Source: Pseudarthrobacter sp. PS3-L1 | Lineage (GTDB): Bacteria > Actinomycetota > Actinomycetes > Actinomycetales > Micrococcaceae | DNA: 64,000 nt | NCBI RefSeq assembly: GCF_030063285.1 | Contig: NZ_JASISU010000003.1 | Coordinates: 372,001 to 436,000 of the forward strand | Reading direction: 5' to 3' | Shown here: piece by piece, positions 17,395 to 45,194 of the stretch | How the letters are laid out: each line of letters begins with the position of its first letter | Position numbering within the stretch: position 1 is the stretch's first letter | Notes under the pieces: model-generated | The model's input: only the letters and a program-made list of their open reading frames with translations | Databases searched by the model: none | What the model was told of the DNA's origin: nothing | Position numbers and translations under genes: made by a program

Positions 17395-17603
17395 TGCGGC
17401 TCCCTTGTCTGGCTTGCATCGAAGAACCAGTATGCATGGCGCGCACAGGCAGCAACCTGTCCACAGGAAATCCAGTCCGGCCGCATCGAGAGGAAAATTT
17501 GTGGTTTAAATCACAGCACTGACCCATCCGCCCACCTCAGGGCTCCGAATCAGGGGTGTCACACCTTCAATCAATGCGTCACTCGCATGAGGAGTTTTTC
17601 CTA

Positions 17604-18371
17604 ATGAACAAGACACTTCGCTTTTTGGCTGTTCCGACTTTGGCTCTTGGTGCCCTGGCGCTTTCGAGTGCTCCGGCGATGGCCCATGATGGGGATCATT
17701 CGTACCAGTCCACGTTGGGCCAGCTTAATGGGAGCACGGCTACGGGTACTGTCACTGTGGACGTCACCGGTACTACTGCCCATGCTGTCCTGAAGGTTTC
17801 CGGGTTGCCGGAGACATTCATGGATGCCCCGTACCCGCACGTGCAGCACATCCACGTGGGTGCTCAGGGTGTGTGCCCGGCGCCGTCGGCTGATACCAGT
17901 GGTGATGGGGTTATCTCCACGACCGAGGGCGCCCCGTTCTACGGTGCTATTGGCACGACGCTCTCAACCAGTGGTGATACCAGCCCTGCTGCCGGTCTTG
18001 ACCTCACTGTCGCCGGTCAGGGTTCTTCCTACACGGTGGACCGGACCTTTGAGTTGAACGCTGAGACCGCGAAGTCCCTCCATGATGGCACTGCTGTTGT
18101 TGTTGTCCACGGCCTGGACCCGGCAACACTGAGCCCTGAGGCTGCTGCTGCACCCTCTGACCTGGTGCCTTCACTGCCGTTGGCAGCTACCTCACCGGCC
18201 CTGTGTGGAACTCTCGCTGCAGGGCAGATGGCCATGCCTGTCGGTGGCGCTGATACCGGTGTTGCCACAACGGCTACTGATAACACCGGGGCTATTGCCC
18301 TTGGTGGTGGCCTGGCACTGGTAGCTCTTGCTGGCGGGGCCTACATGATCCGTCGCCGGGCCGCAGCCTAA
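17604..18371 (+). CDS. secreted CHRD-like protein with C-terminal sorting-like signal
   Basis: 255 residues. Signal peptide ends at APAMA-HDGDHS (about residues 1-27). The body resembles CHRD-type beta domains, with PYPHVQHIHVG near residue 78 and two Cys (91 and 201) that could pair. The C-terminus has MPVGGADTGVA at 211-221, a hydrophobic helix at 229-248 and an RRRAAA tail: the layout of a wall-sorting signal but with no LPXTG. GAGGAG is 9 bp upstream of the ATG. The class F sortase lies 33 bp downstream, so this protein is its probable substrate. The role of the mature domain is unknown. Confidence 0.75.
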   Translation: MNKTLRFLAVPTLALGALALSSAPAMAHDGDHSYQSTLGQLNGSTATGTVTVDVTGTTAHAVLKVSGLPETFMDAPYPHVQHIHVGAQGVCPAPSADTSGDGVISTTEGAPFYGAIGTTLSTSGDTSPAAGLDLTVAGQGSSYTVDRTFELNAETAKSLHDGTAVVVVHGLDPATLSPEAAAAPSDLVPSLPLAATSPALCGTLAAGQMAMPVGGADTGVATTATDNTGAIALGGGLALVALAGGAYMIRRRAAA

Positions 18372-18404
18372 GCACCTGTCCCTGCCTGAATCGATCATCC
18401 CTTG

Positions 18405-19073
18405 ATGACACGCTCGAACGGTTACCGCGGATGCCTCACAGCATCCGCGGTCGCCGCGATCATCGCCTTGACCGGGTGCGCGGGAACACCCGCTGCAGGC
18501 CCGGAACCCACCTCAGGGCCTACCTCCGCAACCACCACACCACCACCGGCACCTTCACCGTCAGGGCCGGCAGCGTCGGGGCCCGTGGCTGCCCCTACCC
18601 AGGAACCGGTCCCGGTACGGACCTCGCCGCCGGTCTCTTTGGAGATCGCTTCCGTTGGCCTTAGTACCGAGTTGTTATCCCTGGGCTTACGTGAGAACAA
18701 GTCCCTGGAGGTACCCTCAGCGACGGAAAACAACGTTCCCGCGAGTTGGTATAACGGCTCGCCGGTCCCTGGCTCACCAGGGCCAGCGGTCATGCTCGGA
18801 CACGTGAACTCACCCGATGGTAGCGCTGGTGTCTTCGCCAGGCTCCGGGACCTCACCCCTGGAGAGCCCATCACCGTGAGGGCCGAAGACGGCTCGATCA
18901 CCACGTTCACCGTCACCCGCGGCGCGGCCTACAGCAAAGAAGACTTCCCCACCCTGGAGGTCTACGGAAACACCCCCGGCCCGGAACTACGCCTGATCAC
19001 CTGCGATGGCTACGACCCCGCCACGGGCCTCTTCGATGACAACTACGTCATCTACGCCCAACTCCAAACCTAA
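18405..19073 (+). CDS. class F sortase, lipoprotein type
   Basis: 222 residues. A lipobox (LTGC, lipidated Cys at residue 25) replaces the usual membrane anchor, then about 50 Pro/Thr/Ser-rich linker residues and a sortase domain. Catalytic His is in MLGHVN (133) and Cys in LRLITCDGYD (200), matching actinobacterial class F enzymes. The C-terminal segment LFDDNYVIYAQL has Asp where many homologues carry an active-site Arg before DN. It presumably attaches or processes secreted proteins such as the CHRD-like neighbour. Base use becomes C-rich and G-poor towards the 3' end. Confidence 0.8.
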   Translation: MTRSNGYRGCLTASAVAAIIALTGCAGTPAAGPEPTSGPTSATTTPPPAPSPSGPAASGPVAAPTQEPVPVRTSPPVSLEIASVGLSTELLSLGLRENKSLEVPSATENNVPASWYNGSPVPGSPGPAVMLGHVNSPDGSAGVFARLRDLTPGEPITVRAEDGSITTFTVTRGAAYSKEDFPTLEVYGNTPGPELRLITCDGYDPATGLFDDNYVIYAQLQT

Positions 19074-19103
19074 CCACCACACCGCACTGCGGATGACCTG
19101 CAT

Positions 19104-19151
19104 GGCAGGAGACCGGCACGGCAGGAGACCGGCACGGCAGGAGACCGGCAC
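19104..19151 (+). repeat. three tandem copies of a 16-bp repeat
   Basis: Three exact head-to-tail copies of GGCAGGAGACCGGCAC fill most of the gap between the sortase stop and the next lipoprotein gene, with a partial GGC after the last copy. Each unit holds an AGGAGA ribosome-site-like core. Too short and lacking spacers to be a CRISPR array; probably a slippage product. Confidence 0.85.
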
Positions 19152-19180
19152 GGCTTATTGAGTATCAGGACAGGAACACC

Positions 19181-19825
19181 ATGAATCATCCACACCGCTG
19201 GATCAGCACACTGGCTCTTTCGACCCTGCTCCTCTCTGGCTGTGCCGCGGCAACAGGAGCCACCACCGCAGCCCCAGGAAACGAGGCCGGTACCGCCAGC
19301 GCCGCTGCTAGTACCCCAGCGGCCGGGGCCAGTCATCACGGCGGGGGATCCACCACAGCCCAGACCACCGCGCAGGGCCCCACCGAAGCGGCGCAAATGG
19401 TCTGCGGCGACGAAGTCAAAAAAGACATGGCCACCCGGCTAGGCCTACCCCAAGCCCCCCACAGCATCAGTGACTTCACCGATAAAATCTTCACCTGCAC
19501 CTACCACCTCACCGAGGGCGACTTCATCATCTCCGTGAAGGAAACCCCCGACCCAACAGCCGCGAAAACCTACTTCGAAGCCCTCCAGGTAGAAGTCCCC
19601 AACGCCACCGACATCAAAGGCCTAGAAAACCTCGGCTTCCCCGCCTACAAAAACACCGCAGGATCAGTCGTCTTCCTCAAAGACAACATGATCCTCCACG
19701 TCAACGCCACCAACATCACCACACCACTAGGCCCAGAAAAAATCACCCCCGCAGCCTTCGCCTACCAAACCGCCACCACCATCCTCGCCTGCTGGAAAGA
19801 ACACCCAGAACAAGCCACCCACTAA
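19181..19825 (+). CDS. lipoprotein of unknown function
   Basis: 214 residues with a type II signal peptide (lipobox LSGC, Cys at about residue 21), a Gly/Ala/Thr/Ser-rich linker to about 65, then a compact domain with Cys near 73, 106 and 206. The domain (SVKETPDPTAAKTYFEAL and VFLKDNMILHVNATN) resembles the DUF3558/DUF3515 style of surface lipoprotein, but I cannot assign it. From about 19430 the codons are strongly C- or A-ending with few G, unlike most neighbours. CAGGACAGG precedes the ATG. It follows the sortase gene in the same direction and may belong to the same locus. Confidence 0.75.
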   Translation: MNHPHRWISTLALSTLLLSGCAAATGATTAAPGNEAGTASAAASTPAAGASHHGGGSTTAQTTAQGPTEAAQMVCGDEVKKDMATRLGLPQAPHSISDFTDKIFTCTYHLTEGDFIISVKETPDPTAAKTYFEALQVEVPNATDIKGLENLGFPAYKNTAGSVVFLKDNMILHVNATNITTPLGPEKITPAAFAYQTATTILACWKEHPEQATH

Positions 19826-19882
19826 CCCCCACCTCCATAACGTCCAGAGAAAACGTCCAGAAAAATGTGGAAGGGTTGGAGC

Positions 19883-42882: not shown

Positions 42883-43593
42883 TCAGCTGTTCCGGGTCCT
42901 GGCTCGCACCACAACCACTGTTCCCAGCGCAGCAACACCAAGCGCACCCAAGGCAACAGGAAGAACGACGCCGGGCGCCGCGGCTGGGCCGACCGCCACG
43001 CCTGTGTCGACTCCACCCATGGGAAGCATCGTCAACTGCCCGCGGACCGCACCGGGAACGAACGCTGAGGTATGGGTATCAGCGGCGAAACCCGCCGGGT
43101 TGGCTTCGATCTGCTTCAGCGTGAAACCTTCACCAGTGTCCTTGCCGTTGTCGCCCATGAGCCCGGTAGTGAACGGTCCCTGCATGCAGCCTGAGCTGGT
43201 TGCCGTGCCCTCCCCTTCCGGATTGGGGAAGGCCAGCCGCGGTGGACCGCTCTCACCCTTGGCTGCCTCGTGGAGGTGGGTCGAGGTTTTTGCCTTGCTC
43301 TGATACGGCGCTGTCACATTGTTCAGGGTGATGTCGTAGCAGACCACATCGAGGTCCGAATTGATCATGAGGTTGAATGTGCCAGTTGCGCCCGGTTGTC
43401 CTGGCGCCAACGCCCCATCAGGACCCACCACCTGATCCGGTGTTGCAGCCGCGCTGAAAGCACTGGTGAAAGAGTCGGGACGGTCCACAGTGGTCTCGGC
43501 CGACGCTGGCGATGCCACCATCACGGCCAGCAGGGTGGCAGCCCCGGCAGCTCCAGAGAATGTGGCGACCCGTGCTTTGATGCTCGTTTTCAT
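42883..43593 (-). CDS. secreted CHRD domain protein with C-terminal sorting-like signal
   Basis: 236 residues. Signal peptide about 1-32 (ending SPASA), then a CHRD domain with FNLMINSDLDVVCYDITLNNV and STHLHEAAKGESGPP, and two Cys (85 and 136). The C-terminus has LPMGGVDTGVA at 190-200, a helix at 207-229 and an RARTRNS tail. The motif nearly matches that of the CHRD-like protein at 17604-18371. GAAAGGGAC precedes the ATG. Divergent from an ECF sigma/anti-sigma pair, which probably controls it. The molecular role of CHRD domains in bacteria is not established. Confidence 0.85.
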   Translation of the reverse strand: MKTSIKARVATFSGAAGAATLLAVMVASPASAETTVDRPDSFTSAFSAAATPDQVVGPDGALAPGQPGATGTFNLMINSDLDVVCYDITLNNVTAPYQSKAKTSTHLHEAAKGESGPPRLAFPNPEGEGTATSSGCMQGPFTTGLMGDNGKDTGEGFTLKQIEANPAGFAADTHTSAFVPGAVRGQLTMLPMGGVDTGVAVGPAAAPGVVLPVALGALGVAALGTVVVVRARTRNS

Positions 43594-43848
43594 GGTGTCC
43601 CTTTCAATGCGCGGCTCCGTGAATCGGTGCCGCCTCGTGAAGGTATACTCGCGTTTTGGCCCCAGCGTTCATGGTCAGTTCAAAAGTTTCTATTTTCTTT
43701 TTTGTCCATGGCGGTGAAAGTTTCTGGCAGTCATGAACAAAGGTCCCGCAAGCGACGTATACCTCCTGACGGCCCTTCAGGGTCGATGAATGGACACGAT
43801 GCAGCAGACCATCAGCGAGGAAGGACGGTTCGCCGCGACAGGCATGCC

Positions 43849-44352
43849 ATGGGCGACTTTGATGTTCATCAGGCATTCGTGGAGCACGGCCGCGCCCTCT
43901 ACGGCTTTGCCCTCAACACCATGAAAGATGCCCCCATTGCGGAGGACTGCGTCCAGGAAACGTTCGTGCGGGCATGGCGGGCACGCGCCACGTTCGATCC
44001 TGGCCTCGCGTCGGAGCGTACCTGGCTCTTCGCAATTGCCCGCAATGTCATCATTGACGAGATGAGGGGACGGTCGCGTCGGCCACTGCCGATCCCTGAG
44101 GAACGGATGGAAAGTGCCGCGCCGCCCGTCACCGTTTTTGGCGCAGCAGAAGACCAGATAGTGCTCACCAGTGGCCTGGCCCGCCTCAGCGAGGAGCATC
44201 GGAACGTCATAGTGGCCATTTCACTTGACGGCCTGACGTACCAGGAGCTTGCCGAGCGTACGGGTGTTCCAGCGCCAACACTGCGCACACGGATGTACTA
44301 CGGCCTCCGGGCACTGCGGAAAGCAATAGGCGAAGAAGAGGAGGAGCAGTGA
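43849..44352 (+). CDS. ECF RNA polymerase sigma factor (SigK/SigL-like)
   Basis: 167 residues with the ATG at 43849; an ATG at 43786 would add 21. Sigma region 2 is seen in DAPIAEDCVQETFVRAWRAR, with FAIARNVIIDEMRGR after it, and region 4 in LSEEHRNVIVAISLDGLTYQELAERTG. The downstream RskA-type anti-sigma ATG overlaps the stop (TGATG). An ECF with RskA and an adjacent secreted protein resembles the SigK/RskA/MPT70-83 arrangement of mycobacteria. The inducing signal is unknown. Confidence 0.88.
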   Translation: MGDFDVHQAFVEHGRALYGFALNTMKDAPIAEDCVQETFVRAWRARATFDPGLASERTWLFAIARNVIIDEMRGRSRRPLPIPEERMESAAPPVTVFGAAEDQIVLTSGLARLSEEHRNVIVAISLDGLTYQELAERTGVPAPTLRTRMYYGLRALRKAIGEEEEEQ

Positions 44353-45194
44353 TGGTGGACCCGTCACGCCGGGACGAGCTGGTGGCAGCGGCCCTCGCCG
44401 GCGAACTTGATGGCCAGGAACAGGAAGAGTTTGATGCCCTTTGTGCCGGCGATCCTGCGCTGTTGCGTGAACTTCACGCACTGCAGCGGCTGACCCAGCG
44501 CCTGAGCAATTCCGATCTCACCTGGGAAGAGCCTGCCCTGCCCCCGGGCCTCGGAGCGAAGATCCTGGCCGCCACGAACGGATATGGCGCGGATGGATCA
44601 CCTGAACCACAGGCAGGTGCATCCGGAGTCCCGCCACGGCTGCCTGGGCTGGCTCAAAAGCCGCACACCACCCCGGGCGCCGACTCTTTGCGCTCTCGTG
44701 GGAACGGCTGGTCCCGTCCTGGTGGGAAGCGGCATTCGCGTGGGATCCTGGCCGCAGCGGCGGCAGCCCTGCTGGTGGTTGGCGGTCTTGGCGGTGCCGG
44801 AATTGCCGGGCTTTCATATCCACCGTCAGGCAGCGGGGCAGAAGAAACCGCGCAGGCCGCCCCAACAGGGCCACCCGGCACCCTGGGCGCAGTGGAGAAC
44901 GTAGCCCTTTATGGCACCCCCGCCGGTACCTCGTTTGAGGCGTCAGTGATAGCCCATACCTGGGGTACAGAGACGGTGCTGGCCATCGACGGGCTCCCCG
45001 CCGGAGACTCTTTTGAGGTGGTCCTGGTTACAGCGAACGGCCAGGAACTCGTCTCGGGAACATTTTTTGGTGCGCAGCAGACAGTCACCTGCCGCATGAA
45101 CGCAGCAGTCATGCGTGCTGACGTCGCCAGCCTCCAGATCCGCCAGGACACTGGCGCGGTGGTTGCGTCGTCGTCAGCCCTGCCCCGCACCTGA
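44352..45194 (+). CDS. anti-sigma factor, RskA family
   Basis: 280 residues. The N-terminal cytoplasmic part (about 1-70, DELVAAALAGELDGQEQEEFDAL) binds the sigma factor in this family. A Pro/Gly-rich linker with an RGILAAAAAALLVVGGLGG transmembrane helix follows near 125-145. The C-terminal external domain (GTSFEASVIAHTWGTETVLAI onwards) is the RskA sensor. The ATG overlaps the sigma stop by one base, with GAGGAG upstream. Confidence 0.87.
   Translation: MVDPSRRDELVAAALAGELDGQEQEEFDALCAGDPALLRELHALQRLTQRLSNSDLTWEEPALPPGLGAKILAATNGYGADGSPEPQAGASGVPPRLPGLAQKPHTTPGADSLRSRGNGWSRPGGKRHSRGILAAAAAALLVVGGLGGAGIAGLSYPPSGSGAEETAQAAPTGPPGTLGAVENVALYGTPAGTSFEASVIAHTWGTETVLAIDGLPAGDSFEVVLVTANGQELVSGTFFGAQQTVTCRMNAAVMRADVASLQIRQDTGAVVASSSALPRT

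Follow-up and report, generated by a model that had tools for sequence, protein, structure and literature searches.

The window, that is, the whole stretch of 64,000 nucleotides of Pseudarthrobacter sp. PS3-L1 analysed here, contains a block of three genes, which encode a CHRD-like protein, a class F-type sortase and a small lipoprotein. The gene of a CHRD-domain protein is positioned about 25 kb away from this block, on the opposite strand. The features are as follows.

17604..18371, + strand: CHRD-like secreted protein of 255 residues with a type-A sorting tail, a likely substrate (NF058571, 35.3 bits; PF07452 below threshold)
18234..18359, + strand: type-A sorting tail, P-V-G-G-A-D-T-G, membrane helix and RRRAAA (genome match C12:390234-390359)
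18402..19073, + strand: class F-type sortase with a lipoprotein signal (LTGC) and H134, C201 and N214; branch A, assigned through an identical copy
19181..19825, + strand: small lipoprotein, function not assigned, a recurrent third gene near the sortase (tblastn)
42883..43593, - strand: CHRD-domain secreted protein of 236 residues with a type-A tail, a likely second substrate in trans (PF07452, 55.8 bits)
42898..43023, - strand: type-A sorting tail, P-M-G-G-V-D-T-G, helix and RARTRNS (NF058571, 18.2 bits in the genome search, cut-off 29)

The CHRD-like protein ends with MPVGGADTGVATTATDNTG, a helix and RRRAAA, and the CHRD protein with LPMGGVDTGVAV, a helix and RARTRNS. The string common to the two tails is P-x-G-G-x-D-T-G-V-A, followed by a hydrophobic helix and a basic tail. 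When the two tails are read directly, L-P-x-T-G before the helix is absent from both. A preliminary description of this DNA had pointed out the two tails and a class F-type sortase downstream of the first, and all three are present where it placed them. It had also called the bodies of the two proteins otherwise different, and BLASTP indeed finds no significant similarity between them (E=0.93). As regards its label 'CHRD-type', the protein at 42883-43593 is a clear match that exceeds the PF07452 cut-off of 24.1 bits, and the protein at 17604-18371 is only a match below this cut-off (16.3 bits, E=0.019).

The sortase reading frame starts with TTG at 18402 and its next codon is ATG at 18405; the gap between the stop codon of the CHRD-like gene and the sortase start is 30 or 33 bp, depending on which start codon is used. 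The lipoprotein that follows has no family match. With tblastn it is matched in 16 further loci, which represent 15 distinct places and are all near a sortase because only sortase flanks were searched. It is perhaps an accessory of the sortase system. Beside the CHRD gene, at about 43780-45194, lies a divergent pair composed of a sigma-factor-like reading frame, recognized by eye, and an anti-sigma-like protein, the NCBIfam matches of which are below threshold. Judged by its position, this pair could possibly regulate the CHRD substrate.

The sortase and its copies

The window sortase scores 149.6 bits against the class F model NF033748, below the curated NCBI cut-off of 166; the next best sortase class reaches 19.9 bits. 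The identical copy of the enzyme is nested, on the tree described below, among sortases that exceed the NF033748 cut-off, and the lipobox LTGC is seen in this copy.

The protein has a sortase fold with catalytic-type His134 and Cys201 and an Asn at the usual Arg site. H134, C201, N214, W116 and G127 are invariant in all 89 aligned class F sequences. The canonical catalytic Arg is therefore absent and an Asn is invariant in its place; this is not claimed as new because the Arg-to-Asn change in class F sortases is already stated in excerpts of an earlier paper (PMC6998099). Compared with solved sortases, the predicted structure (pLDDT 84) gives Z scores of 14-17 (up to 16.7). A Protein Data Bank search with the window sortase sequence gave one distant class A chimera and no class F entry. 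A profile search gave five entries, none of them labeled class F. They comprise class C sortases, an LPXTG-site transpeptidase, an entry named simply 'SORTASE' and a sortase family protein that a later listing gives as sortase D.

A second copy of the block (17577-19830 in the window) is found at about 901 kb of contig C10 (L012). It is 97.8% identical over 2,254 bp, and its sortase and lipoprotein are identical to those of the window at the amino acid level. A third copy, at about 7 kb of C10 (L011), lacks the sortase; about 260 bp separate its CHRD-like gene from its lipoprotein gene. The three copies look like the products of recent duplication or gene conversion. Since a second, identical sortase exists, the knockout of one copy would probably be masked, and so would the single sortase deletion that had been proposed earlier as a check.

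The genome has three class F matches and three further PF04203 genes. A branch-B sortase (see below) at C12:339202 adjoins a B-tailed DUF4397 protein, so that this genome has both of the systems described here. At C11:173-177k (L014), two convergent sortase genes are accompanied by two nearby proteins ending with LPLTGG, a predicted LPXTG-type system that is separate from these.

The tail motif and its distribution among genomes

The DNA pattern for P-x-G-G-x-D-T-G, CCNNNNGGNGGNNNNGAYACNGG, has two matches in the window, which are exactly the two tails, and none in 100 dinucleotide shuffles. It has four matches in the 3.57-Mb genome, all in tails (the three CHRD-like copies and the CHRD protein), and the reversed pattern has none. 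The shuffles and the reversed-pattern scan of the genome rule out a chance motif.

The motif itself is not new, because it is catalogued as NCBIfam NF058571, GVDTG_CTERM ('GVDTG sorting domain'). The C terminus of the CHRD-like protein, which carries the same tail as this entry, exceeds the curated cut-off of 29 bits (35.3 bits, 39.5 in the genome search). The CHRD protein has the core P-x-G-G-V-D-T-G, but scores 14.3 bits (18.2 in the genome search) and stays below the cut-off. Furthermore, the catalogue output names no sortase. The Asp of P-x-G-G-x-D-T-G is not essential, since E, Q, A and other residues occur at that position. An Ala replaces Thr (G-G-[VA]-D-A-G) in type-A tails of two genomes, G043 and G129 (L036, L115, L119 and L120), and the residue before the presumed cut may therefore vary.

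No paper naming an enzyme for the NF058571 tail was found in a literature search the scope of which excluded subscription papers and preprints. A full-text search for GVDTG gave only papers with unrelated titles. No paper joining the DUF4397 or CHRD domain with a sortase, or sortase sorting signals with Arthrobacter, was found, and among the titles and first lines of abstracts listed none links the A or B tails to class F.

The distribution of the tail was studied in 198 genomes of the order, where class F sortases were called at E up to 1e-15, and in 296 genomes of the phylum, where tails were called at E up to 2e-6 and class F sortases at E up to 1e-25. Only so many candidates from a first look were scored in each genome, and the numbers of tails and sortases given here are therefore minimum values. 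In the order, class F sortases are common (at least 99 of the 198 genomes), and at least 56 tails above the NF058571 cut-off are found in at least 36 genomes. In each of these 36 genomes, a class F sortase reaches 140 bits or more. An equal frequency of the motif in genomes lacking class F, named in the preliminary description as the outcome that would count against its reading, is not found: among the matches listed, above-cut-off tails occur in 36 of 99 order genomes with class F vs 0 of 99 without it (Fisher p ~6e-13, a statistic that ignores kinship, which is unevenly sampled), and in 17 of 58 phylum genomes with class F vs 0 of 238 without it. Thus, all 17 tail-bearing phylum genomes have class F. 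Among the order genomes with class F, again for the matches listed, the tail is present in 36 of the 69 that have a sortase of at least 140 bits and in none of the 30 with lower-scoring sortases only. NF058571 matches below the cut-off do occur in genomes without class F, and many of these span only the helix part of the model.

Many tails are also adjacent to the enzyme. For 36 of the 56 above-cut-off tails listed for the order, and for 17 of the 20 listed for the phylum, a class F sortase follows closely on the same strand. The distance between tail and sortase in these pairs is within about 650 bp, except for one of 1.3 kb. The other 20 of the 56 order tails have no listed sortase neighbor. 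Sixteen of them belong to one genus, g28 (six in a single genome, G059), which has four listed sortases in the branch-A range without a tailed neighbor; three are in two genomes of the window's family, and the last is the third block copy of the window's own genome. Some of these tails are near contig ends and a sortase neighbor might have been missed. From their positions, the distant tails look as though they belong to substrates processed in trans, which would also be the case for the CHRD protein of the window. The best evidence for this protein as a candidate substrate comes from its relatives in G133, G147 and G167, with 56-65% identity to it across 170-223 residues: their tails are of the same kind, and they directly precede branch-A class F sortases.

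The preliminary reading of the string as a dedicated non-LPXTG motif is supported by the association of above-cut-off tails with class F genomes. On these genomic patterns, recognition of such a motif by the neighboring sortase is the best explanation of the tails.

Two sortase branches and two tails

The neighbor of a class F sortase was defined as the nearest reading frame with a C-terminal anchor within 600 bp upstream. Two patterns were used for its tail, A (P.G[GA]..[TA]G) and B (P.[GASE][VA].[SAG][GA]). The order set comprises 88 of at least 150 tabulated class F sortases and was partly chosen by hand; it deliberately took in 20 low-scoring sortases and those without a listed tail. The named set comprises 79 of 80 loci and is biased to A, as it was retrieved with branch-A sortase queries. 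The locus dropped from it, L159, is on a contig titled Vibrio cholerae strain 35D and encodes a close relative of the window sortase (51% identity); it is probably a mislabeled or contaminated assembly. The patterns were written after reading the tails and the loci were partly hand-chosen, so the counts are neither blind nor random.

In the named set, the 79 sortases have 60 A-tailed neighbors, none with a B tail, two with neither, and 17 for which no neighbor was found. The 66 order-set sortases of at least 140 bits have 49 A-tailed and 5 B-tailed neighbors, one with neither tail and 11 without a neighbor. The 22 sortases below 140 bits have no A-tailed neighbor, 19 with a B tail and 3 with neither. 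The 246 other anchored reading frames of the same loci give 11 matches to A and 5 to B, and, by their appearance, most of the 11 extra A matches look like further genuine tails.

In a maximum-likelihood tree of 167 sortases, a single change is enough to separate the A (109) and B (24) labels, and none of 500 label shuffles gave so low a number (mean ~22). The split has a bootstrap support of 75 and an SH-aLRT of 99; there are long branches, and one row, L196, is odd. The window enzyme is represented on this tree by its identical copy. Neighbors of branch A carry P-x-G-[GA]-x-x-[TA]-G and those of branch B carry P-x-G-V-x-[SAG]-G. A profile made from 18 B tails has at least 50 matches in the order at E up to 1e-6, about half of them at its source loci; among the matches listed, 47 of 50 have a class F sortase after them, at a distance of up to 3 kb. 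What is new, as far as sequences can tell, is that the class F sortases split into two branches, each with its own tail type.

The pre-tail parts of 162 proteins fall into 18 clusters. The largest cluster contains 90 proteins of the CHRD-like family. The second contains 42 proteins, including 14 A-tailed and 24 B-tailed sortase neighbors, and the three members that were scanned (one A-tailed and two B-tailed) contain DUF4397 (PF14344, 106-114 bits). An NCBIfam scan of one A-tailed and two B-tailed DUF4397 proteins gave no match; some other A-tailed DUF4397 proteins match NF058571 in genome searches. PF14344 is found at 11 of 49 A-tailed and at all 24 B-tailed loci of the order set. Thus, one body carries either tail, matching the branch of the adjacent sortase. 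The A tails occur on varied bodies, namely CHRD-like, CHRD, DUF4397, Excalibur (PF05901) and several unmatched ones, which rules out that the motif belongs to the CHRD body. The B tail is less secure as a portable tag because all 24 order-set B bodies are DUF4397.

Among the DUF4397 matches listed, 89 of 107 have a listed class F sortase at a distance of 3 kb or less. Fifteen further DUF4397 stretches served as a control. In four of them (L258-L261) the protein stops right after the domain, and the stretch contains no motif, helix or class F sortase; in L258 the contig ends soon after the gene, and L260 is from a genome without a class F match. Six stretches (L262, L263, L264, L269, L270 and L271) have both the tail and a class F-like sortase, and in five (L265-L268 and L272) the contig ends after the tail before a sortase could appear. 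On this small control, the four motif-free proteins rule out that the B motif is a part of the DUF4397 fold. The proteins of L262-L265 have a third form of the tail, P-x-x-V-x-T-G-x-G-G, which is between types A and B and is followed by a class F-like sortase in L262-L264. The P-x-x-V-x-T-G of this form suggests that A and B align at their [VA]-x-[TSA]-G ends, with the spacing of the Pro differing by one residue.

A helix with a positively charged tail is alone enough for anchoring, and cleavage is a step that we infer. The tail might then be a membrane anchor only, the string having some other role and the adjacent sortase acting on other proteins. This is unlikely, however, because the string recurs on different bodies, above-cut-off tails occur only in genomes with a high-scoring class F sortase (among the matches listed), and on the same DUF4397 body the tail varies with the sortase branch and is missing where no sortase is near. 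Part of the concordance between tail and branch has been inherited together, as 77 of the 110 A-tailed neighbors belong to one CHRD-like cluster. As an account of the whole match, joint inheritance of neighboring genes without specific recognition is just as improbable as the plain anchor: A-tailed DUF4397, Excalibur, CHRD and other proteins are found by branch A and B-tailed DUF4397 by branch B, and, among the matches listed, above-cut-off A tails without a sortase neighbor are still found only in genomes that have such a sortase. Processing of the tails by another sortase of the genome, presumably the class E enzyme with the LPLTGG-ending neighbors on C11, is less probable still: the T-G is common with LPXTG and the genome has three further PF04203 genes, but Leu-Pro-x-Thr-Gly is absent from both window tails, and the above-cut-off tail tracks genomes with high-scoring class F in a survey that covered class F only.

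Proposed processing and relation to known systems

The tail architecture, the co-occurrence in genomes, the adjacency, the concordance of branch and tail and the different tails on a shared body are established. Both CHRD proteins are likely substrates of class F sortases, which would form two branches with different tail specificities. After export, the proteins would be retained in the membrane through their C-terminal helix and positive tail, and then handed over to the sortase encoded at 18402-19073 and to its identical second copy. All the steps after the arrest in the membrane, including recognition, the cleavage site, the acceptor and covalent attachment, we infer by analogy. The sortase, as a lipoprotein outside the membrane, would recognize P-x-G-G-[VA]-x-T-G, cut most likely between T and G through Cys201, and pass the protein on to an envelope amine, for which a peptidoglycan precursor is the most likely candidate. 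Branch A would read P-x-G-[GA]-x-x-T-G, and branch B the one-residue-shorter P-x-G-V-x-[STAG]-G. It is rather likely, if less so than the substrate assignment itself, that the tail codes of the two branches are mutually exclusive and one residue apart in spacing, that the DUF4397 tail follows the accompanying sortase, and that the A tail has spread to proteins encoded at other sites of the genome, CHRD and Excalibur proteins among them.

The LPXTG signal of class A and other sortases likewise ends with T-G before a helix and a basic tail. Unlike it, the window tails lack Leu-Pro-x before T-G and have a Pro six residues before the T, with G-G in between. The LAXTG signal of class E sortases, as described in parts of PMC13257024 and PMC5148588 and otherwise generally known, is actinobacterial, contains T-G and has the same tail layout, but the residues before T-G and the sortase class are different. 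The class F enzyme of Propionibacterium acnes (SrtF) shares the class name with the window enzyme and, according to excerpts of PMC7451113, is an active transpeptidase, but it acts on LPQTGE-type (LPXTG-type) peptides. This counts against the proposed explanation of the A tail. So does Actinoplanes missouriensis, in which, according to excerpts of PMC13251363, sporangium formation was normal after all four class F sortases had been deleted. That study, as far as its excerpts tell, sought substrates by LPXTG-like pentapeptides, a search that would not include A or B tails.

Excerpts of PMC6998099 and PMC13251363 call the function of class F undesignated, or its physiological role unknown, and describe substrate searches by LPXTG-like pentapeptides or the Pfam anchor model. 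When this model was run on ten proteins with A or B tails, none exceeded the cut-off and one gave a match below it. With likely substrates and two separate tail codes named, the function of class F becomes directly testable. The A and B codes could also give new sequence specificities for protein ligation. In soil actinobacteria, some surface proteins appear to be marked by P-x-G-G-x-x-T-G and a helix; a sister branch of these sortases is associated with another tail, and the one that matches this mark probably cuts it and thereby attaches the proteins to the cell envelope.
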